Shown here: positions 1,029 through 33,863 of the stretch, piece after piece | How the letters are laid out: each line of letters opens with the position of its first letter | Position numbering within the stretch: the stretch's first letter is position 1 | IMG/VR virus record: IMGVR_UViG_3300005295_000004 | Span: 1 to 51,510 of that record | DNA: 51,510 nt | Direction: 5' to 3' (one strand) | From: a virus | The notes under the pieces: model-generated | What the model was told of the DNA's origin: nothing | Databases searched by the model: none | What the model saw: the letters and a program-made list of their open reading frames with translations, nothing else | Made by a program: the position numbers and the translations under genes

Positions 1029-2236
1029 GTCACGCACTTATCGCACCCTCTGCTATGGATTTAACCGTTAAATGCAACGCCTCTGTGAAGTTGCAACAAC
1101 AGGTTGCGCCGCTTCCTGATACCGACGAAGAAGCCGAAGGCAAAGCAGCCCATTGGGTTGCGATGATGTACGCCGCCGGCAAAAATCACGGCTTAGAAGT
1201 AGGCTCAAAATTCTTTCATGAAAACCGCGAATGGACGTTAGACGCCGACATGATGGCCGGCGCGATCATGTACAAACGCGCAATCGGCGGCTTTCATTCC
1301 GACTTGCGTTTAGAAGACCCCGTAAGAGTTTCACGCGTACACCCGCAACATTGTTGGGGCACGCCTGATGCTTGGCGCTTCTTCCCTGATGCTCGCAACG
1401 CGTGGTTAGAATGCCCGCCCGAGATTTCGCCCGATCTGTTTGCGCGCGGCATGATTAAAATACTGCGCGTGGCCGATTACAAATACGGGCACCGCTATGT
1501 TGAGGTTTACGAAAATTATCAAGTTGGTGCGTGCTACGCGCCGGGCGTGATGGAACGCTTGAACCTTGACGACTTGGACCCGAATTTGTGGATTGAAATG
1601 TGTATCGTGCAACCTCGTTGTTATCAAGCAGAGGGGCCGGTTAGATGGTGGCGTGTGCAAGCGCATGAATTGCGCGGCGTCGTCAACATCGCATCGAACG
1701 CAGCACATGCAGCACTCGGTGAAAATCCAATCGCAAAAACAAATGATTCGTGCATTGATTGCCGCGCGCGTCATGTGTGCAAGACGTTACAATACGCAAC
1801 CGGTGCCCTTGTTGATTTTTCATCGACTGGTGAAATCGTGGAAATGCCGCACGATGCGATAGGCACTGAACTTGTAATCATACAAGATGCAATCAAACGT
1901 TTGAAGGCGCGCGAAACGGGCTTAGCGGCACAAGCCGAGGCGTTGATGATGCAGGGCAAACCTGTTTCATTCTTCCATATGGAACGCGGCGAATCGCGTC
2001 TGACTTATTTTGATAATGTCAACGTTGACGAGGTCGTCACACTTGGCGAACTATTAAACATTGATCTACGGAAGAAGCTCGAACGAAAGGACTTGCTAGT
2101 TACTCCCACGCAAGCAGTGCAAAGGGGGGTTGACCCGGACACCATGAAGCTTTACGCTCATAGACCTAAAGCAGCCTTAAAGCTGGTTCGCGATAATTCT
2201 ATGGTTGCACGCAAGGTGTTCGGTGCCTCTAAGTAA
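1025..2236 (+). CDS. DUF2800 PD-(D/E)XK (Cas4-like) exonuclease
   Basis: A 403-aa protein. It shows a HxAxGKAAHW-type N-terminal region, GTPDAWR, then VADYKYGHRYVEVYENYQVGA, which fits the D...(E/D)xK and Q motif of RecB/Cas4-type nucleases. It also has a Cys cluster CIDCRARHVCKTL near residue 245, as in iron-sulfur Cas4-like members. DUF2800 genes typically sit beside a gp2.5-like SSB and a family A polymerase in phages, exactly as here. A role in phage DNA recombination or end processing is likely. The start overlaps the previous stop (ATGA). Confidence 0.88.
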   Translation: MSHALIAPSAMDLTVKCNASVKLQQQVAPLPDTDEEAEGKAAHWVAMMYAAGKNHGLEVGSKFFHENREWTLDADMMAGAIMYKRAIGGFHSDLRLEDPVRVSRVHPQHCWGTPDAWRFFPDARNAWLECPPEISPDLFARGMIKILRVADYKYGHRYVEVYENYQVGACYAPGVMERLNLDDLDPNLWIEMCIVQPRCYQAEGPVRWWRVQAHELRGVVNIASNAAHAALGENPIAKTNDSCIDCRARHVCKTLQYATGALVDFSSTGEIVEMPHDAIGTELVIIQDAIKRLKARETGLAAQAEALMMQGKPVSFFHMERGESRLTYFDNVNVDEVVTLGELLNIDLRKKLERKDLLVTPTQAVQRGVDPDTMKLYAHRPKAALKLVRDNSMVARKVFGASK

Positions 2237-2759
2237 CGCGCAAAAGCAGAAAGCCTATCGAATGCGGCGTAAGGCTGATGTCGAAAAGTATGCTGCGTAT
2301 TTAGAAGCTCGCAAGCCTTCACATCGAGAATGGACACGAAGAAAACGCGCGCAGCTTAAAAAAGATCAACCTAAAAAATGGTCTAAATTATTAGCTGCGC
2401 GCAGATTACAGGCTAAACAAAAACATCGAGCGGACCCACGACACGCATTACTGCATTGGGCTCGTAAACGTGCGCGAGATAAAAATATAATTTGTACGCT
2501 AACGCTCGCAGACATTGTTGTTCCTAAGCGTTGCCCTGCTCTTGGAATTGTTTTGAAAATTGGTGATGGCAAGCTACACGCAGCATCACCGACGTTAGAT
2601 AGGCGCAACCCAAAGAAAGGTTATACGCCTAACAATATTGCAGTCATTTCGCATAGAGCGAATGCAATTAAAACTGATGCAACGATTAAAGAAATTTTGG
2701 CCGTTGCTGCTTGGCTTCAAACCGTCACACCATCACCACGAAAGGTATTCAACCGATGA
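2223..2759 (+). CDS. HNH/treble-clef-like phage endonuclease
   Basis: About 178 aa from a GTG start at 2223, chosen because AAGG lies 6 nt upstream and the product then begins PLSNAQKQKAYRMRRK, a common start in this group. The N-terminal half is strongly basic and helical (DNA binding). The C-terminal part has LTLADIV, CPALGIVL, SPTLDRRNPKKGYTPNNI and AVISHRANAIKTDAT, characteristic of a phage endonuclease family related to HNH/recombination endonuclease VII folds. Few of the usual zinc cysteines are present. It overlaps both neighbours (ATGA with the SSB gene). Confidence 0.78.
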   Translation: MPLSNAQKQKAYRMRRKADVEKYAAYLEARKPSHREWTRRKRAQLKKDQPKKWSKLLAARRLQAKQKHRADPRHALLHWARKRARDKNIICTLTLADIVVPKRCPALGIVLKIGDGKLHAASPTLDRRNPKKGYTPNNIAVISHRANAIKTDATIKEILAVAAWLQTVTPSPRKVFNR

Positions 2760-3856
2760 ACGCACCCGCCACACAACCCAACACTATTTTGTTCCCGCCC
2801 GGTCGCATCGTTCAGGGCGATCTATACAACGGCCAAGACAAAGACCAAGCCGGCAACCCGCTAACTGTTAAGACTGGTGCCAACGCCGGCAAAGCAACTG
2901 TGCGCTACTTCTTCGCCGTTGCGATTCCGAAGACGCAACAGAATTGGTGGCACGAAGTGTGGGGGCAAAAGATTTTCGCTATTGCTGCCGCTGCATGGCC
3001 CCAAGGTCAAACAGCAAACCCAAACTTTGCATGGAAGATTGAAGACGGCGACAGCCAAATACCCAACCAGAACGGCCGCAAGAATGCTGACCGCGAAGGG
3101 CACGCACGTTGCTGGATTATTAAATTTAGCTCGTCATTCCCTGCGAAGGTATTCGACGCGCAAAGCAACCCGCTTGTGCAACCCGGTCTTGTGAAACCCG
3201 GCTTTTGGGTTGAAGTGCTCGGCACGGTTGAAGGCAACGGCCAACCACAAAAACCCGGTGTGTACATGAATCACAACATGGTTGCATTCCGCGCGCCTGA
3301 CAAGGAAATCGTGAGCGGTCCCGATCCGCGTTCGGTCGGCTTTGGTCAGGCAGCATTGCCGGCCGGCGTCAGCGCCGCCCCGATGCCTAGCATGGCACCC
3401 GGCGCACCAATGCCCGGCGCAGCGGCTCCGGGTGCCATGTACCCGCCTGCAGCAGCACCCGGCGCGTACCCACCGTCAGCGGCCGCCCCAGCGCCTGCAG
3501 CAGCGTACCCAACACCGGGCGCAGCACCTGCCGCCTATCCAACGCCCGGCGCAATGCCCGGCCCTGTGGCGACGCCTGCGGCCGTTCCGGGTGCATACCC
3601 AGCCCCGGGCGCAATGCCTGTGTCTGTAGCGCCCAATCCATCGTTTATTGCACCGCCCGGCGCGGCACCGGCACCAATGGCAGCCCCAGCGGCACCGATG
3701 GCCCCTGCGCCCGCTCCGGCGGTCGCTGCTGACCCATTGGGTGCACCGGCTGGCTTCCGTATGGCAAACCCACAGGGTGCGAACTACACGGCCCACCTGC
3801 AACAAGGTTGGAACAATGAAACCTTGCTTGCCGCCGGTCACATGGTGCGCCTTTGA
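2756..3856 (+). CDS. ssb: T7 gp2.5-like (DUF2815-type) single-stranded DNA-binding protein, zero-frame product
   Basis: 366 aa in the zero frame. The N-terminal ~190 residues (GRIVQGDLYNGQDKD, VRYFFAVAIPK, FAWKIEDGDSQIPNQNGRK, HARCWIIKFSSSFPAKVFD, GFWVEVLGTVEGN) match the phage OB-fold SSB family usually encoded between DUF2800 and the polymerase. Residues ~205-330 are a low-complexity Ala/Pro/Gly linker, typical before an SSB acidic tip, yet the zero frame ends HMVRL without one. The +1 frame supplies such a tip immediately downstream (see 3855-3950). The ATG at 2756 has GAAAGG upstream and overlaps the endonuclease stop. Confidence 0.85.
   Translation: MNAPATQPNTILFPPGRIVQGDLYNGQDKDQAGNPLTVKTGANAGKATVRYFFAVAIPKTQQNWWHEVWGQKIFAIAAAAWPQGQTANPNFAWKIEDGDSQIPNQNGRKNADREGHARCWIIKFSSSFPAKVFDAQSNPLVQPGLVKPGFWVEVLGTVEGNGQPQKPGVYMNHNMVAFRAPDKEIVSGPDPRSVGFGQAALPAGVSAAPMPSMAPGAPMPGAAAPGAMYPPAAAPGAYPPSAAAPAPAAAYPTPGAAPAAYPTPGAMPGPVATPAAVPGAYPAPGAMPVSVAPNPSFIAPPGAAPAPMAAPAAPMAPAPAPAVAADPLGAPAGFRMANPQGANYTAHLQQGWNNETLLAAGHMVRL
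3845..3856 (+). promoter_or_regulatory. candidate programmed +1 frameshift site (CTT TGA, prfB-like)
   Basis: The SSB zero frame ends GTG CGC CTT TGA. CTT followed by in-frame TGA is the slip site of bacterial prfB, where peptidyl-tRNA-Leu moves from CUU to UUU. GGTG lies 3 nt before CTT, the same spacing as the prfB internal Shine-Dalgarno, though the pairing is weak (4 bases). A +1 shift enters an open frame that ends in an SSB-type acidic tip. The base after TGA is G, not the C of prfB. Confidence 0.65.
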
Positions 3857-3950
3857 GCGAATCGTAAACGGTAGGTTGCCGGGGTCGATGTACCCCGGCG
3901 CGATGTACCCTTACGACCCGCAATTTTCTGATGATGAAATACCGTTCTAA
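3855..3950 (+). CDS. +1-frame extension of SSB carrying acidic C-terminal tip
   Basis: Reading on from a +1 shift at 3851-3856 adds 31 residues: ERIVNGRLPG, then SMYPGAMYPYDPQFSDDEIPF-like sequence ending at TAA 3948-3950. The last residues DDEIPF closely match the conserved C-terminal peptide of bacterial SSB (DDDIPF) that recruits replication and repair partners. The GAMYP segments echo the zero-frame linker (GAMYPPAAAPGAYPP), which supports one continuous protein of 397 aa. It could instead be a natural frameshift mutation or a sequencing error, but the exact CTT-TGA context argues for programming. Confidence 0.65.
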   Translation, partial: ERIVNGRLPGSMYPGAMYPYDPQFSDDEIPF

Positions 3951-3960
3951 CTGAGTCCCG

Positions 3961-4012
3961 CCCCGCTGTTGTAAACGCGCTATGCCTGTGCACGGGAAGC
4001 CCAACAGCGGGG
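3961..4012. repeat. 11-bp perfect inverted repeat upstream of the exonuclease gene
   Basis: CCCCGCTGTTG at 3961-3971 pairs with CAACAGCGGGG at 4002-4012 across a 30-nt loop. It occupies most of the 81-nt gap between the frameshifted SSB end and the next ATG (4032, with GAGGG upstream). There is no T-run, so it is not a simple terminator. It could be an RNA structure setting polymerase operon expression or an mRNA-processing site. Confidence 0.7.
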
Positions 4013-4031
4013 AAATGGGCGAGGGCTCACA

Positions 4032-4514
4032 ATGATTGAATACGCACGTGCCGGCACTCAGTATCGCGCCGGCATCGGCCTCGCGACTGTGCTTCCCGAT
4101 TTTGACTTCGAGACGTACAGCGAAGCGGGCCTAACGTGGAATTCAGAGTTGCAGAAGTGGGGCTCACTGCCGGGCCTATCCGATCAAAACCGAGGCTTGA
4201 AAGCTGTGGGCACTCGCAACTATGTTGAGCATCACAGCTTTGAAGTCTTGTCACTCGCTTACAACTTGAAAGATGGCAACGGCGTGCAATGGTGGCGGCC
4301 CGATCCTTACACGCCATACAAGCAATATCCGCGTTATATGCCGGGCTCGCGTGATGTAATGCACCCGTGGCCGTTGCTCGAACACATTGCATCAGCTCAA
4401 CCGCTTGAAGCACACAACGTAAATTTTGAATGGGTCGTGTGGAATGTTCATTGCGTGCCGGTGTTAGGTTGGCCGCCATTCCATTGCGACGAACAAGGGT
4501 TGCCGCCACTATGA
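4032..4514 (+). CDS. family A DNA polymerase, N-terminal 3'-5' exonuclease fragment (Exo I and Exo II)
   Basis: A 160-aa protein containing DFDFETYS (Exo I, Dx(E) with D25/E27) and LEAHNVNFEW near residue 125 (Exo II, Nx2FE). It ends WPPF plus ten residues. In related phage polymerases the GWPPL segment is followed directly by a CSxAKARAxxxPGSL helix. Here that helix begins a separate protein at 4705. So this is the front of a polymerase exonuclease domain encoded as its own polypeptide. Exo III lies on the downstream protein, so an active exonuclease would need the two to assemble. RBS GAGGG precedes the ATG and the stop overlaps the next start (ATGA). Confidence 0.85.
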   Translation: MIEYARAGTQYRAGIGLATVLPDFDFETYSEAGLTWNSELQKWGSLPGLSDQNRGLKAVGTRNYVEHHSFEVLSLAYNLKDGNGVQWWRPDPYTPYKQYPRYMPGSRDVMHPWPLLEHIASAQPLEAHNVNFEWVVWNVHCVPVLGWPPFHCDEQGLPPL

Positions 4515-4708
4515 ACGAAGAAGTACGCAACGGCATCGTGCATAAATTCGTTCTACAGCGCGACGGCGAACCGATCAACATACAAGTTACAGTCGATATG
4601 CGCGATATCTTGCTGTTGTTCACTCGGTTGGCGCTGCGCAATAAATCGAAGCGCACAAAGTTCGCCAATGGTTGCATTGAATTAAAAATAATCGAGCCTA
4701 AAAAATGA
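4511..4708 (+). CDS. 65-aa protein inserted between the two polymerase fragments
   Basis: From ATG 4511 this encodes 65 residues (MNEEVRNGIVHKFVLQRDGE..., ending IELKIIEPKK). Its start overlaps the exonuclease stop and its stop overlaps the polymerase start, both by ATGA, so three cistrons are chained. The sequence looks like a genuine small alpha/beta protein with a basic middle (RLALRNKSKRTK). No family recognised. The insert is too short for a typical homing-endonuclease intron and is in a different frame from both neighbours. It may bridge the two polymerase parts or be an unrelated insertion. Confidence 0.7.
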   Translation: MNEEVRNGIVHKFVLQRDGEPINIQVTVDMRDILLLFTRLALRNKSKRTKFANGCIELKIIEPKK

Positions 4709-6567
4709 GTGACCAAGCACATTGCAGCGCCGCGAAGGCCCGCGCATCTGCGTACCCGGGCTCACTGGCTGAACTTGGCGCAGTGTTGAATCTAACGCAG
4801 CAAAAGGATAAAGCCGGCGGCGATTTAATTCGCAAGCTGACGATGCCTAAAAAGCCCACGAAAGCAAACCAGTCATTGCGCTGGACGCCGTTCACCGCCG
4901 CTGACGACTTCGTCAGGTTCTACGAATACAACAAGCAAGACATTGTCACCGAAGCACATGCAAGCGCTCGGGTTCCTGATTTAACCCCACGGGAACACGA
5001 CATCTGGAAGTTAGATTTGCGTATTAACATGCGCGGCATGCAAGTAGACCGCGCGGCAGTAGAAGACTGCATCGTTATCATTGAACAAGCCGAGTTGCGC
5101 TACAACGGTGAACTACGCGAGATAACAAACGGCGTAGTGCAGAAGTCAACCGAAGTTGCAAAAATGCTTGAATGGATGCGCACGCAAGGTGTGTACCTTT
5201 ACGAACTTGACGAAGACACACTTGCGGACGCATTGAAGCGAACCGATTACCCACGCGCAGTGTTGCGCGTGCTGCGCATTCGGCAAATCCTCGCCTTTGG
5301 TAGTTGTAAGAAGTATTACGCGTTTCGCGCGCAGACGAGCGCCAGCGGTCGCCTATACGATCAATACACCTACTACGGCGCTCACACATCGCTATGGAAT
5401 GGTCGCGGCGTACAACCTGCCAATCTCTACAAGGGGGTGTTCTCAAAACCCGAGCAAGTAGAACACGCGCTGTCAATTATCAAATGCCGATCGATTGAAT
5501 TGTTAGAGCTGGAATACGGCGAGGGTTCAGCGTGGGCATTGGACCCAAAGAACAACGGCGCACTTGATGCGCTTGAAGTCGTCGCCAGTTGTTTGCGTTC
5601 AATGATCATTGCAAAGCAAGGGCACCGTTTGCTGTCTGCCGACTTCACAGCAATACAAGCTGTTGCAACATCATGCATGGCTAACGAGCAATGGCGCATT
5701 GATGTGTTCAGAGGTCACGGCAAAATCTACGAAGCGCAAGCATCAGCGTTAACAGGTAAGCCGCTACAAGCGTATCTCGATTTTAAAAAACAATACGGCA
5801 AACACCACGACGACCGACAGCTAGGCAAGCTCGCAATCTTGTCCGGAGATTTCGGCGCATGGGTGAACGGCTGGAAACGTTTCGGCGCTGATGAAATCAT
5901 GGGCAGTGACGAAGCAATTAAACAGTTGATATTGAAGACGCGCGACGCCATGCCCAACATCGTTAATTTTTGGGGCGGTCAAACGGTCAACAAATTTAAG
6001 CACGACGAACAGCAACTGTTGTATGGGCTTGAAGGCGCGGCAGTCTCTGCAATCCTGCAACCCGGTGATTGCTTCAGTTCTCGCCCGGGCTCACGTCTTG
6101 GTGTGTTGTACCAAATGCACGAGGATGTTTTATATTGCCGGCCACCTTCGGGGGGCTTCATTCGCTACCACGCGCCACGCTTGCAGCCATCATCACGACC
6201 TTACGCAAGCCCGTGGGAGTATGAAATCTCTTACGAAGGCAACAACAGCAACGCAACGAAGGGAAAAATAGGTTGGGTGCGAATGTCGCTTTATGGTGGC
6301 GTTCAAACACAGAACGTCATCAGTCATATGTGTAGAGAGATTCAAGCAGACGCGTTATACAGACTTGAGCGCAACGGCTACCCGATTGTGATGCACACCC
6401 ACGATGAAGGTGTAGCAGAAGTCCCGAACGGTTACGGCAGCATTCCCGGTTACATGGAGTGCGTGCGCCAGTTGCCGGCATGGGCTGTATGCGAAGATGG
6501 TCAGCCGTGGCCTATCAAGGTGCCTGACGCGTGGGAAGCACAACGCTACGGCAAATGGGAAGATTAA
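4705..6567 (+). CDS. family A DNA polymerase, Exo III plus polymerase domain fragment
   Basis: A 620-aa protein beginning MSDQAHCSAAKARASAYPGS, the sequence that normally follows the Exo II region in one-piece phage polymerases. It has Exo III (Y75NKQD79), motif A (SAD313FTAIQAV), motif B (R371QLGK375LAILSGDF383G) and motif C (MHTHD567E568G). The catalytic aspartates D313 and D567 and motif B Arg/Lys are present. Two positions are unusual: the motif A glutamate that normally follows Ile is Gln318, and the motif B tyrosine is Phe383. The start overlaps the 65-aa gene (ATGA). It is the last gene of the replication operon and is followed by a terminator. Confidence 0.92.
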   Translation: MSDQAHCSAAKARASAYPGSLAELGAVLNLTQQKDKAGGDLIRKLTMPKKPTKANQSLRWTPFTAADDFVRFYEYNKQDIVTEAHASARVPDLTPREHDIWKLDLRINMRGMQVDRAAVEDCIVIIEQAELRYNGELREITNGVVQKSTEVAKMLEWMRTQGVYLYELDEDTLADALKRTDYPRAVLRVLRIRQILAFGSCKKYYAFRAQTSASGRLYDQYTYYGAHTSLWNGRGVQPANLYKGVFSKPEQVEHALSIIKCRSIELLELEYGEGSAWALDPKNNGALDALEVVASCLRSMIIAKQGHRLLSADFTAIQAVATSCMANEQWRIDVFRGHGKIYEAQASALTGKPLQAYLDFKKQYGKHHDDRQLGKLAILSGDFGAWVNGWKRFGADEIMGSDEAIKQLILKTRDAMPNIVNFWGGQTVNKFKHDEQQLLYGLEGAAVSAILQPGDCFSSRPGSRLGVLYQMHEDVLYCRPPSGGFIRYHAPRLQPSSRPYASPWEYEISYEGNNSNATKGKIGWVRMSLYGGVQTQNVISHMCREIQADALYRLERNGYPIVMHTHDEGVAEVPNGYGSIPGYMECVRQLPAWAVCEDGQPWPIKVPDAWEAQRYGKWED

Positions 6568-13108: not shown

Positions 13109-14316
13109 GTGAGCACCACAGTGATGTTTGCAGGGTCTACGGTCGGCGCTTGATCAATGCCGGCAATGATCGAATTCAACGCACCGGGGCCGCTCGTGCC
13201 GATCAAGATTGACAAGATAGAAACTTCAGGGCCGATGCGTGACACAGGGCCAACGAATTTCGATGCAAGGATAGTCCCGCCAATGCGGATGCGTTGCGAA
13301 CCATCAAGACCGTTGAAAGCTGCAACAATCGCAGCTTTGACAAGTGCGTCGATGTTTGAAGGCAACGAACTAGAGTCCGTCAATTCCACACGAAAGAAAA
13401 TCGGCAGCGGCGCAGGGCGTTCAAACGTGATCGTATAAGTTGGGTAAGGCGGCGTGTAACTGGTATCAGGAACGATCACAGTTGTGTTGCCATTCATGTT
13501 GCAACCTAAATCCTTTTTGATATAGATCGCATTGCCAATCGCTTGACCTTCACCACCAACAACAGCGACATAAACAGAGTGGGGCAATAATGGGTAATTG
13601 GTTGCGCCATAAGGCAACGTCGCATCAGTAACGTTTTCAGTCACGAACACATCAAGCACGTCAGGCACGTTGAACACGTTCGCGTAAATCGATTCTTTGG
13701 ACCCGTGGGCATTCAGTGCAACACTGTTGTAACGCCGGAATTCAAACTCTGCGCGCGATTCAACAAAGCGACCAAGCACGCCCGGCGCTGGGTTGTTGAT
13801 AGAATCCCAACCGGGAATTGCTTTGTAAATCGTCGTCAGTGTATTTGCAGGGCATGGTACAGGGCCATCAACAACGTTAGCAAAACTCAAAGTGATGGTG
13901 CCTGACAACGGAATCTGACCGCCATCTATGCACACGTAACGATTGCCGCTTGTGTCTTGCGCTTGAGCGCCAACCGGTATGTTGGTGCCGAAATTGCCAG
14001 TGCATTGACACGCAACAACAGTCGGCGCACCGGGCGAGCGATCAAGGAAATAGATTCGCGCAATGCCGTCTTGGTAGATGCCGTCAGCCGTATCGGGGTT
14101 CACTTGATTAACGATGTTGGCAAACACCGCGTTGGCATCAGCCACAATCGCAGCCGTGCTTGATGCAAGCTGACCTTGCGGCGTGTTTAACGCTGGGTTG
14201 AGATTGCCGCCAAACGCTTCGTTGTAATCCTGTTGAACGCCGGCAAGAATAGCGGCCTCTTGGGGCACTTCTAAGCCTTCAGGCGTGAAAACAACCGATG
14301 GAACGTTAGTAGTCAT
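13105..14316 (-). CDS. baseplate J-like protein
   Basis: A 403-aa protein with the Baseplate_J pattern. The N-terminus MTTNVPSVVFTPEGLEVPQEAAILAGVQQDYNEAFGGNLNP is followed by TPQGQLASSTAAIVADANAVFANIVNQVNPDTADGIYQDGIARI, a central SLNAHGSKESIYANVFNVPDVLDVFVTENVTD region and a C-terminal IDALVKAAIVAAFNG segment. It forms the wedge that hooks the baseplate around the tail tube. Overlaps both neighbours by 1-4 nt. Confidence 0.92.
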   Translation of the reverse strand: MTTNVPSVVFTPEGLEVPQEAAILAGVQQDYNEAFGGNLNPALNTPQGQLASSTAAIVADANAVFANIVNQVNPDTADGIYQDGIARIYFLDRSPGAPTVVACQCTGNFGTNIPVGAQAQDTSGNRYVCIDGGQIPLSGTITLSFANVVDGPVPCPANTLTTIYKAIPGWDSINNPAPGVLGRFVESRAEFEFRRYNSVALNAHGSKESIYANVFNVPDVLDVFVTENVTDATLPYGATNYPLLPHSVYVAVVGGEGQAIGNAIYIKKDLGCNMNGNTTVIVPDTSYTPPYPTYTITFERPAPLPIFFRVELTDSSSLPSNIDALVKAAIVAAFNGLDGSQRIRIGGTILASKFVGPVSRIGPEVSILSILIGTSGPGALNSIIAGIDQAPTVDPANITVVLT

Positions 14317-30032: not shown

Positions 30033-32102
30033 TCAACCTCGCCCGTACCCCGGGTTTGCCTTGCGGTAAGCTTTCGCTTCTTTAGCAAAAGATTGATTGA
30101 CCCACTTGTTAAAATTCTGCAGCGTTGCAAACGCAACATCTACTTTACGCTTAGCGGCTTGAAACTGCGGGTTAGACTTTGTTTCATCTGAGCGCAAGCC
30201 CATATTGCCGGCAGGGAATGCGGCATCTAGTTCTTGCGTTGCAGTTTTAACGGCAGCATTTAATTCATCTTGCTTTTTACGCGCTTCCAAATAACTGGAC
30301 ATATTACCGCCGCCAAACTTACCGCCGGCACCGCGTGGGTGGTCGGCTTCGTTCCACCCATCATTTGTCAGCGTATCTTTTTCGGCCAACTCTAACGCAC
30401 GTTGGTGCGCTTCTTCCGCCGTTTCCTTGTTGCGTTCGTGGTCCGCTTCCGCACCTTGTTGGCCTAGATTGTGCTCGGTTTCCATCAACCCAGCTTCAGG
30501 CGGGCCGGGCGCATCGCCTGATAGGTTGTTGTAGCCGCTGTCTGGATCACTGCCCACGCGTTCGCGTACTTCGTCAGGACTGATTGCGCCCATGTCAACG
30601 TAGGTTTTGTCAGTTTCTGCATTGCTCTTGCGAATCTCGGCCAGCTCTTTAACGGTTGGCGAATTCATTGACGGCCACGCGTAGCCAATAGCTGCATCAA
30701 TGCTGCCGAACAAGTGCAACTGTAGAATGTCAATGATGTGTTGCATGTGGGGGCCGTAGAACGATGTCTTGCGCGCGTTTACATGATCGTACCAAACCTT
30801 AATTTCACCCTCGCTGTCAGCGTTCAAGCCTGCAGGCGTGATGCCCGTCAGCTTCACTAGCGGCATGTGCGAAGGGGCCGCCATGTGCTCTTGTGATTGC
30901 GCTTGCAACTTATCGAGCCCGGCTAGACTCGATTCAACAACCTGCATTTCCTCGCGATTCTTATCGATCAAGGTCAAGCCTTGATTGTCACGCGTGTTAA
31001 CGAAGAACTTCGCGCGATCTAGCAAACCCATGCCAGCCTCTGCGCCGCCGGGGCCGCCGGCCAACACTGCATTCATATCGGTTTTAAGCACCATCACCGA
31101 GAAGTTATGCACGAGGTCTGACACGCTGTTACGCGTGCGCAGCCACTGGAATACATACGGCTCCATCAGTTGCGACATTGACAGCCCGCCGAAGTTGTAG
31201 GCAGGCTTGAGGATGTCGGGCACCTCACGCGATATGAACGTCAGCAAGCGTGACGAGTGTATGCGCTTGCCAATCACAAACCATGCGACCGGCTTGTAGA
31301 AGTCGCCGCGTGTTGGGTCGGTAGCGTTGTAGCTATAGGGCGTTGTCCATATCGGTTCAATCACCTTGAATCCTTTCAACGAACCTTTTCTAATCGTCTT
31401 GTCACTCACAACAAGCGGCAGTTGGCGCACCTCGTCTTGATCTTTGTTGCCGGTGTCCATGTCAATAAACAACTGACCACGGCCGAAGTATCCATCCAAC
31501 TCAACCAGATGGTGAAAGTGTGCAGCTATCTGAAAATCCTTAAACGCCTGTTCGAGTTTTTCGATTTTATCCTCTGCGCCGTTATCATCTAAGCCGTTGC
31601 CATCTTCGTCTTTGATTTGCCCACGGGCCTTGCGCTTCTTCTTACTCGCTTTGCCATCTACGGTAATGTCGATAAATTCGCGCGTCATTTCATCGGCCAA
31701 CGTTTCAACCGGTGAGCGATATTCGCTACGTTGCGATAGCTCACTCAGATAGCCGTAGCCGGGAAATCCCATGCCGCAATTCGCTTGGTTGAGATACGCC
31801 CATGCCGGCGCGTTCTGCGCATCATCCATCGCCAACACAGGCGGCCCAAGTTGTGCCGGGTCTTTCTCAGCATCGTAGACAAAGCCGCCGCGCACGTTGT
31901 CAGGCAACTGCGGCGGTTCAACCTTGCGATACATGATGTAATTTTCGCCAGCTTTCACTAGCGTTTTAGCCATCAACGAAGGGTGAATGTTGATGTGCTT
32001 GGGGTCGTCTACTTCTTCCGTGGGCGCTTCAGTCGGCAGCGTGGGCACATCGAGCCACACGCGCAGCGTATGCCGTAACCAGTTCAAAGGGCGTGTGAAC
32101 AT
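30033..32102 (-). CDS. portal protein (DUF1073/anti-CBASS-Acb1-unrelated portal family)
   Basis: A 689-aa protein. The DUF1073-type portal core spans roughly residues 95-520: FPGYGYLSELSQRSEYRSPVETLADEMTREF, VELDGYFGRGQLFIDMD, VIEPIWTTPYSYNATDPTRGDFYKP, WFVIGKRIHSSRLLTFISREVPDILKPAYNFGGLSMSQLMEPYV, LVKLTGITPAGLNADSEGEIKVWYDHV. The C-terminal ~130 residues are extra: acidic/Lys-rich coiled coil and WNEADHPRGAGGKFGGG, a short motif also seen on portal- or MuF-linked modules. The RBS AGGAG precedes the ATG. It forms the dodecameric DNA gate. Confidence 0.9.
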   Translation of the reverse strand: MFTRPLNWLRHTLRVWLDVPTLPTEAPTEEVDDPKHINIHPSLMAKTLVKAGENYIMYRKVEPPQLPDNVRGGFVYDAEKDPAQLGPPVLAMDDAQNAPAWAYLNQANCGMGFPGYGYLSELSQRSEYRSPVETLADEMTREFIDITVDGKASKKKRKARGQIKDEDGNGLDDNGAEDKIEKLEQAFKDFQIAAHFHHLVELDGYFGRGQLFIDMDTGNKDQDEVRQLPLVVSDKTIRKGSLKGFKVIEPIWTTPYSYNATDPTRGDFYKPVAWFVIGKRIHSSRLLTFISREVPDILKPAYNFGGLSMSQLMEPYVFQWLRTRNSVSDLVHNFSVMVLKTDMNAVLAGGPGGAEAGMGLLDRAKFFVNTRDNQGLTLIDKNREEMQVVESSLAGLDKLQAQSQEHMAAPSHMPLVKLTGITPAGLNADSEGEIKVWYDHVNARKTSFYGPHMQHIIDILQLHLFGSIDAAIGYAWPSMNSPTVKELAEIRKSNAETDKTYVDMGAISPDEVRERVGSDPDSGYNNLSGDAPGPPEAGLMETEHNLGQQGAEADHERNKETAEEAHQRALELAEKDTLTNDGWNEADHPRGAGGKFGGGNMSSYLEARKKQDELNAAVKTATQELDAAFPAGNMGLRSDETKSNPQFQAAKRKVDVAFATLQNFNKWVNQSFAKEAKAYRKANPGYGRG

Positions 32103-32114
32103 TGCAAGCGCTCC

Positions 32115-33863
32115 TTAGCGTCGCAGAGATTGGGGGGAAGCACTCAGCGCCAATAGTGCCGGATTGATCGACAGGACGCCATAGCGGGGCGCTCGCAGCA
32201 TCATGACGGCATCGGCAAGGTTGGGCGACGGCAGGGCGGCGCGTATCTCGGTTTTTGTGCCCGGCGGGCATTTATCAACCATCACCTTACCGTTTTTGCT
32301 GAGCGCCCACACGGGCTGTGACAGCTCAATCACAAGGCGTGCGCGCTTCTCGAAATCCTTAGCTATGCTGATGAACTGCGCGACGTCGATCACTGGACGC
32401 TCGCCGCGCTTGTAAGCTTCGACGGCACGATAGGTGTACTGAAAATAACTACGCAGCATCCACCATGCTTGCGCCTTGGCATTCTCGAAAAAGTCCAACG
32501 CAGTGCGCTCGGTGCCGGGCACGATCACATCAGGCTCGTGCACTTCACCCGAACCACGGAAGGGCAACACGGTGATGACCTTGCTACCCTTGGCGATGCG
32601 TGCTTCATTGATCTTGCGAGCATCACCGCGCACACCAGCGCCCAAGCCGTCAGCGTCGTAGTAGAACTCGTTGACGCCGTTGGTATCGCACAACATGAAC
32701 GTGTTCTCTACGCTGTGGTAGATATCAAGGTCAGCGGTGCCACGCCATGACGTGACCGATTCAATCAGGAACGATTGACCGATAGCCAACGCGTTTGCAT
32801 CCTTGCCACTATCTGCAACGTCCAACGTGGCGCGCTTCTGGCCCTGTGGTTTCAAGCCAAACAATAGATGCGCGTCGATAGCAGCGGCAACCCATTCGGT
32901 CGGAATGACTTGACCCTCAATCGATGCTGTGAAATTGCGGTCGTACTCTTGCGCAAATATGACGGGGTCAAGCGTTGCACGTTTCCTGCGTTCCCATTCA
33001 GCATCCTTGCGCGGGTCATCCTGCCAAGCAAAGTCAATGCGTGGTATGTCGGCATTGTGTGCACGTTCCGCGAAGCTGTTCGCCATACCGTTGACGCTAG
33101 ACATATCAATACGGCTGTTTGTGTTGGCCGATAGTGACGCGTCGATAGCCTTGGGGTTTGGAATGTGCGCCGATTCATCAACGAGGTAAACAGACTTACG
33201 GCCGCCGCGTCCGATGTTGTTGCCAGCTTCACCAGTGATTGACGACCCTGTCAGCGGGAACGCAAGGCGCATGTGGGCGCTGTGCTTTTGGATGGTCCAG
33301 CCGCCGCGAAAGATGTCAGGCAAATACGATAAGAACAAACGGCCTTTATAAAACAGCGTGTCGGGGTCGCCGCTACGGTCTACCTTATCCTCTTTTTCGC
33401 TGCCGAACCCTACGGTTACATCGTTGTAGAAGATGCACAGCGATGATGCGAAGCCCATCGCAAGCCATGAGATACCCACATCGCGCGACTTTACGCACGT
33501 GCCATCTTCACCATTGCGCCAGCGTAGGTATAGCCAGTCAATGAACTCGCGTTGCTTGGGCCACAACACCATAGGCATCATCGTAGGGCGACCGATCACA
33601 CGCGGGTCAATCGTTACGCCCCAATCATTGATGAAGTCTGCAAAGTGCCCGTTGCGGTAATAAACCTTGATCCTGTTTAACAAGTCAGGATCGGCGCGCA
33701 GCTTCGCAAGACGTGCGGCGCGTGCCTTCCATATCGGCAAGTAATCAGGGTTTCGCCAGTTGAAGCCGGGCGGCATGATGCACGTTGCACCATCAACAAT
33801 TTCGGTCGGCGGCTTAATAAGCTGCTGTGATTCAACGATGATTGACGAAGGCACGGCAGACAT
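32115..33863 (-). CDS. terminase large subunit
   Basis: 582 aa from ATG 33863. A TTG at 33869 overlapping the small-subunit stop is a possible alternative start. ATPase: QREFIDWLY (adenine-binding region), CVKSRDVGISW (Walker A-like), SVYLVDESAH (Walker B with catalytic Glu) and SSVNG (motif III region). Nuclease: KRATLDVADSGKDANALAIGQ and NEFYYDADGLGAGVRGDARK carry RNase H-like acidic residues. It drives headful or cos packaging, which cannot be distinguished by eye. A diverged palindrome sits at 33239-33254. Confidence 0.93.
   Translation of the reverse strand: MSAVPSSIIVESQQLIKPPTEIVDGATCIMPPGFNWRNPDYLPIWKARAARLAKLRADPDLLNRIKVYYRNGHFADFINDWGVTIDPRVIGRPTMMPMVLWPKQREFIDWLYLRWRNGEDGTCVKSRDVGISWLAMGFASSLCIFYNDVTVGFGSEKEDKVDRSGDPDTLFYKGRLFLSYLPDIFRGGWTIQKHSAHMRLAFPLTGSSITGEAGNNIGRGGRKSVYLVDESAHIPNPKAIDASLSANTNSRIDMSSVNGMANSFAERAHNADIPRIDFAWQDDPRKDAEWERRKRATLDPVIFAQEYDRNFTASIEGQVIPTEWVAAAIDAHLLFGLKPQGQKRATLDVADSGKDANALAIGQSFLIESVTSWRGTADLDIYHSVENTFMLCDTNGVNEFYYDADGLGAGVRGDARKINEARIAKGSKVITVLPFRGSGEVHEPDVIVPGTERTALDFFENAKAQAWWMLRSYFQYTYRAVEAYKRGERPVIDVAQFISIAKDFEKRARLVIELSQPVWALSKNGKVMVDKCPPGTKTEIRAALPSPNLADAVMMLRAPRYGVLSINPALLALSASPQSLRR

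Follow-up and report, generated by a model that had tools for sequence, protein, structure and literature searches.

A family-A phage DNA polymerase is encoded as two separate open reading frames (ORFs), and the break, which lies inside the proofreading domain, is conserved in a clade of related phages. Small accessory genes have probably split the polymerase between the Exo II and Exo III motifs, and the two halves, designated P1 and P3, would reassemble non-covalently, working exonuclease included. This interpretation is based on the conserved split, purifying selection, intact motifs, the position of the break in a predicted loop, turnover of the cargo genes found in the gap and recurrence of such splits in the wider family. 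The window, namely the whole stretch of DNA analysed, corresponds to an IMG/VR virus record (51,510 bases) and carries terminase, portal, capsid, tail-sheath, primase and helicase genes. The locus spans positions 4032–6567, where P1, P2 and P3 are three overlapping ORFs in three different frames. A sequence-only reading had placed Exo I and Exo II on a 160-aa protein and Exo III with the polymerase motifs on a 620-aa protein, separated by a 65-aa gene in a third frame with exact ATGA overlaps at both joints. The ORFs and the sequence agree with this layout, and the motifs were located by alignment. The features are listed below.

2205..2759, plus strand: HNH-type endonuclease gene near the locus (phrog_3322, E 1.4e-30)
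2756..3856, plus strand: Gp2.5-like SSB gene, upstream context (phrog_7011, E 1.2e-59); ATG 2756 is taken as the start, the ORF list having TTG 2711
4032..4514, plus strand: P1, N-terminal half of the family-A DNA polymerase with Exo I and Exo II, 160 aa (ORF; phrog_17 positions 675–754, E 6.6e-5)
4104..4112, plus strand: Exo I, D25-x-E27 (alignment A2; D and E in 23/23 covering rows)
4416..4430, plus strand: Exo II, N129...F132-E133 (alignment A2; E in 24/24 covering rows)
4479..4514, plus strand: new tail of P1, FHCDEQGLPPL-stop, conserved among the four split records compared
4511..4514, plus strand: ATGA overlap of P1 and P2 (sequence)
4511..4708, plus strand: P2, cargo ORF, 65 aa (sequence; no detectable relatives)
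4705..4708, plus strand: ATGA overlap of P2 and P3 (sequence)
4705..6567, plus strand: P3, Exo III and polymerase domain, 620 aa (phrog_17 positions 758–1232, E 3.4e-50)
4927..4941, plus strand: Exo III, Y75-xxx-D79 of P3 (alignments A1 and A2)
5641..5643, plus strand: polymerase motif A aspartate, D313 of P3 (alignment)
5815..5829, plus strand: polymerase motif B, R371...K375 of P3 (alignment)
6400..6408, plus strand: polymerase motif C, H566-D567-E568 of P3 (alignment)

Since the matches of P1 and P3 adjoin in the DNA polymerase profile of PHROG (phrog_17), hardly any of the family profile is missing at the joint. The match to Pfam PF00476 lies below the cut-off (14 versus 34.3 bits), and a PHROG scan of 26 window proteins (7 + 10 + 9, a subset of the window genes) revealed no second polymerase. 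The polymerase motif residues (D, R/K and HDE) are kept in P3 of all four split records that were aligned, and those of Exo I and Exo III are kept as well. The usual DEDD consensus comprises DxE in Exo I, N...D in Exo II and Y...D in Exo III, the Exo II acid thus being D. Here this acid is E in 24 of 24 rows, split and one-piece alike, so that weak proofreading, if any, would be a trait of the family and not a consequence of the split; for the same reason, exonuclease activity must be considered unproven even in one-piece members.

The place of the break is well delimited. In one-piece relatives, GWPP and CxxAKARA are separated by some five residues (e.g. GWPPLRPEQCRDSMAKARA), and most of the nearest one-ORF relatives (L006–L010 and L029) read GWPxLxxEQCxxxMAKARA or similar. 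In the window, GWPP of P1 is followed by the new tail of 11 residues, and P3 starts with MSDQ, about six residues ahead of the conserved CSAAKARA. The earlier statement that one-piece homologues run directly from GWPP to CSxAKARA needs refinement in this respect. The structure of L007, a relative in one piece, was predicted with an alignment of 28 rows as input (20 one-piece, 4 P1 and 4 P3). The model is Klenow-like with a mean pLDDT of 87.6; its best VIA superposition on Bst pol I (4dsj) has Z 28.9 and rmsd 4.0 over 528 aligned residues, these values referring to the one-piece relative and not to the split chains, and its top Foldseek match is the Pol I of phage G20c (E 9e-15). The break corresponds to L007 residues ~166–175, predicted to form the loop between the Exo II helix (149–165) and a short strand (175–177). 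On this model, the break would leave the Exo II helix with the first strands in P1 and assign the Exo III helix, together with the last strand, to P3.

Among viral contigs, a protein scan detected 38 relatives, and the same split, which the sequence-only reading had proposed to look for in related phages, was found in three further distinct phage records, L002 (of which L003 is a near-copy), L004 and L005. In these sisters, P1 ends GWPPFHCD[DE]QGLPPL-stop and P3 starts M[ST]DQAHCSAAKARASAYPG, as compared with MSDQ in the window. The codons at the joints have diverged while the protein has been retained: 8 of the last 12 codons of P1 (stop counted) vary among the four split records, seven of them synonymously and one as D/E, and 12 of the first 20 codons of P3 vary, 10 of them synonymously. 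The four split records form one clade nested among one-piece genes in the tree (support 100/100), and every split member is an IMG/VR virus record, with no cultured phage among them. In a phage collection, the P1 and P3 matches lie just 36–102 nt apart in 34 records (among the matches listed, read by hand), which implies that no insert is present at the site, and a search of genome contigs with alignment A1 gave two distant relatives only. That the polymerase is encoded as two separate ORFs, with the break conserved in the clade, is confirmed.

What lies between the halves differs from record to record. From the P1 stop to the P3 start, the insert measures 190 nt in the window, 187 nt in L005, 738 nt in L002 and 1308 nt in L004, with one ORF in each of the first two, about four in L002 and about five in L004. 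Comparison of the four inserts by blastn and tblastx gave only self and chance-level matches, and the last cargo ORF nonetheless overlaps P3 by ATGA in all four records. The cargo of L004 includes a helix-turn-helix protein (phrog_3865, E 7.7e-8). Another of its cargo ORFs (4971–5270) has a paralogue just upstream of P1 (25649–26038 of oriented G003, 53% over 75 codons), so that the same small gene stands on both sides of P1. No endonuclease family was recognized within the cargo ORFs scanned (those of L002 in part), and no recoding signal was found at the split.

As a gene, P2 rests on weaker evidence than P1 and P3. When the insert was dinucleotide-shuffled 20,000 times with the ATGA at either end kept in place, this frame stayed open in 767 cases, and the single-sequence model of P2 has a pLDDT of 62 and a pTM of 0.31. 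No relatives of P2 were found in the phage collection, in plasmids or in 12 related records (a search run without positive control), and none of 52 pattern matches in viral contigs was confirmed. The proposal that the small protein bridges the two chains is contradicted by these data: unrelated inserts occupy the same place in the three sister records, which speaks against P2 as a structural bridge, and since the four inserts have no common sequence, P2 is read as one of several exchangeable cargo genes, a replaceable passenger.

The wider family was surveyed by profile scans for polymerase loci (80, then 80 and 43, with many repeats of the same contigs). The resulting 239 loci, many of them repeats and 13 of them left out for want of an N-terminal half, contain 162 distinct polymerases with both halves in addition to the window, 151 of which are in one piece. 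The 11 broken genes consist of the three sisters of the window, five other two-piece genes (L093, L094, L106, L126 and L129) and three that were not counted as splits, since they look like plain single disruptions of the frame (L036, L091 and L265). All five other two-piece genes are broken between Exo II and Exo III, either at the VL/KD loop (L093, L094 and L106) or just ahead of the Exo III helix (L126 and L129); these sites lie near 195–208 and 228–240 in L007 numbering, in loops and loop edges of the model. In a tree of 84 rows, from which repeats and the most distant loci were omitted, the nine split rows (window included) need four label changes, three of which are forced by well supported branches. 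Cargo varies here too: L126 carries a DNA methyltransferase of the Dam type (PF05869, E 2.4e-12), L094 encodes a member of the RMF family (PF04957, E 3.8e-7) and L093 has four small ORFs without assigned family. L106 has no cargo, just a stop and a new start, and neither has L129, which could be a one-base indel instead of a real split. Since the same kind of cut recurs in related phages, the gap would seem to be a docking site at which cargo genes are tolerated, and not an accident.

Two further observations concern polymerase genes of other layouts. In Vibrio phage VP16C (AY328853), the polymerase is annotated as two ORFs (32857–33582 and 30737–32797) and the P1 match comes in two pieces; the break lies earlier than that of the window and is possibly an old sequencing error. 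In L258, L264, L267, KX196154, PP179306 and MT104474, the polymerase matches are far longer than the query; the first three had been scored as a single open frame or did not appear among the broken loci. All six may contain in-frame insertions such as inteins.

The new C-terminal ends of P1 in the other splits deserve attention. Escherichia coli SSB ends DDDIPF, and SSB-tip-like ends are found in four of the five other splits, namely CNECIPF in L093, DAEDKPF in L094, YDDDIPF in L106 and IEDDIPF in L126, L093 and L094 being sisters so that the four are not all independent. Among background ORFs, 10 of 1873 end in PF, a number that includes three of these P1s, L106 having been lost to a filter that demanded an M 60 or more residues ahead of the C-terminus. 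Behind the stop of the SSB genes in these four loci, no frame shows such a tip. In the clade of the window, P1 is devoid of an SSB-like tail and ends QGLPPL. We regard as rather doubtful the broader proposition that the Exo II–Exo III stretch is a recurrent fission point yielding a dockable exonuclease subunit, with an SSB tip in several lineages and the gap as a co-translated cargo slot. If it were true, the exonuclease half would have taken the DDxIPF tip that other members carry behind their SSB gene, in a +1 or readthrough frame, and could be recruited via the SSB-tip binding site of the replisome.

The SSB genes themselves have unusual ends. In the window (3851–3950) and in eight loci (L002, L004, L005, L006, L008, L010, L078 and L080), the SSB gene ends CTT followed by TGA, TAG or TAA, and the +1 frame behind the stop reaches an acidic IPF end (e.g. 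DPQFSDDEIPF; IPY in L010). CTT-TGA resembles the frameshift site of prfB, and a programmed +1 frameshift would possibly add a docking tip to SSB in the window and these eight loci. Out of 102 SSBs without a script-detected tip, one, that of L010 with its IPY tip, ends CTT TGA. In six other loci (L098, L099, L102, L105, L107 and L112), the SSB gene has GG[CT] TGA CTG at its end, and reading on past the stop in the same frame leads to an acidic CIPF, where stop-codon readthrough is a possible way of adding the same tip; L100 has this context with the tip in the +1 frame. Upstream of related polymerases, 29 of 147 regions have on the plus strand an ORF with the C-terminus acid-x-[ILVKM]PF, as against 1 of 147 on the minus strand. 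A literature search, thin on subscription journals, found no paper on SSB recoding of this type.

That a one-piece gene only appears broken through a sequencing or assembly error can hardly be maintained. Plain disruptions of the frame are indeed seen in the wider set (L036, L091 and L265), but three other distinct records share both joints exactly and hold unrelated, coding-like inserts, and identical break codons in these sisters exclude sequencing error and chance; a frame error, one of two objections foreseen in the sequence-only reading, is thereby ruled out. The other objection was RNA splicing, in which a group I or group II intron carrying the 65-aa ORF would be spliced out to give one full polymerase. 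Introns do occur in phage polymerase genes, according to the available text of PMC2993671, and one was proposed for a similar split by the authors of PMC10580990. In the present case an intron is very improbable: Rfam gave nothing relevant at gathering thresholds and, in the four split loci at E<=1, no intron and a single unrelated microRNA-like chance match, the 187 and 190 nt inserts share nothing with each other or with those of 738 and 1308 nt, and the P1 tail is conserved as protein up to its stop. Halves of a split intein are absent from the joints as well. Judged against the sizes of inteins, the 11 residues of P1 beyond GWPP and the approximately six of P3 before the conserved region leave no room for them, so that a split intein is rejected.

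The state of the exonuclease is a separate matter. Pairwise dN/dS among the four split records, measured by the Nei–Gojobori method, is 0.043–0.179 for P1 (the highest value, 0.179, for the pair L002/L005) and 0.053–0.088 for P3 over six pairs, values that are rough since dS is near saturation in several pairs; both halves are under purifying selection. It is unlikely that proofreading has been lost, P3 being an exonuclease-deficient polymerase and P1 a decaying remnant or a protein with another job. P3 indeed has neither Exo I nor Exo II, the family carries E and not D as the Exo II acid, and the ratio of dN in P1 to dN in P3 is 2.7–3.0 in two of the six split pairs, versus 1.5–1.8 for the N-part relative to the C-part in three one-piece pairs; given this ratio and the upper dN/dS of 0.179, P1 may be somewhat relaxed. 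Against this, the other four pairs have ratios of 1.4–1.8, like one-piece genes, P1 is under purifying selection and every motif residue is kept. The sequence lends no support to lost proofreading as suggested earlier, and an exonuclease rebuilt from two chains, the alternative suggested with it, is indirectly supported by low dN/dS in both halves, retained motifs and the predicted loop at the break. An exonuclease that is detachable or can be regulated, with P1 and P3 associating part-time so that the phage tunes proofreading, would account for splits recurring in the same stretch and for SSB-tip-like ends in four of five outside splits (versus the 10 in 1873 background); we hold it to be quite improbable, as P1 of the window's clade, ending QGLPPL, has no such tip.

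In the preferred interpretation of non-covalent reassembly, P1 would bind P3 to give one family-A polymerase, and an edge strand from P3 would complete the sheet of P1, as expected from the sheet arrangement of the DEDD fold. The overlapping starts and stops would keep P1, cargo and P3 co-translated, with ATGA translational coupling setting the P1:P3 ratio. New genes would be tolerated in the gap since each joint falls within a loop and the problem of reassembly has already been solved. The first break may have been made by endonuclease-driven insertion, and an endonuclease may have opened the gap or renewed it, the case for this origin being circumstantial. L005 (G004) has three endonuclease VII-like genes (981–1169, 3797–4021 and 13977–14141). 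Its split gene is flanked, not entered, by the first two, a situation found only in L005 and resembling the nuclease-bracketed islands described in the accessible part of PMC10448857. The HNH gene of the window differs from endonuclease VII, and its family was detected in the window and, of 10 records searched, in one other with a weak match.

Several known systems offer comparisons. In the T4-like Aeromonas phages 25 and 44RR, gene 43, encoding a family-B polymerase, is split into 43A and 43B, and the two proteins of phage 25 co-purify and are polymerase-active according to the review PMC2988022, from the available text of which the following points are also taken. There too a phage replicative polymerase consists of two chains with a variable insert in the gene (a seg endonuclease or an untranslated spacer), and by analogy P1 and P3 most likely assemble as reported for 43A/43B of phage 25. 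The present polymerase differs in belonging to family A, in splits that recur independently in one family and in scanned inserts of which none encodes a recognizable endonuclease. The nrdA gene of Aeh1, split by mobE (PMC2988022), likewise encodes an essential phage enzyme, is interrupted by another gene and still functions as two chains; its insert is a homing endonuclease, whereas here the inserts are unrelated small genes and reassembly is predicted. In MIJ3 PolB, discussed with split inteins and fractured genes in what could be consulted of PMC6892783, the polymerase is also in two ORFs with a gene between, but no intein halves are present here. The closest parallel is that of MEP401 and MEP402 (Zobellviridae), whose family-A polymerase is in two ORFs with a small ORF without assigned function between them, gp13 and gp14 of MEP402 overlapping by four bases in the annotation (PMC10580990, accessible text). 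Division of a family-A phage polymerase by a small ORF has therefore been published before; in MEP401/MEP402, however, the break is in the polymerase domain, after the exonuclease, and the authors suspected an intron, whereas the break described here is inside the exonuclease and turnover of cargo is shown. As far as searched, the exonuclease-internal break, its repeated origin in one family, cargo turnover at a fixed joint and tip-like P1 tails are new, no prior report of these four features having been found in a literature search on split polymerases that covered few subscription journals.

Until now, split phage polymerases have been known as single oddities. Here, one family has been cut several times within the same short stretch of its proofreading domain, and the gap is filled by interchangeable genes, a DNA methyltransferase among them. 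This raises the questions of whether a DEDD exonuclease whose metal ligands are divided between two chains can work, and whether a phage could adjust its replication fidelity by means of the split. Polymerase genes thus appear as hiding places for phage accessory genes, in loci that simple annotation would call broken.
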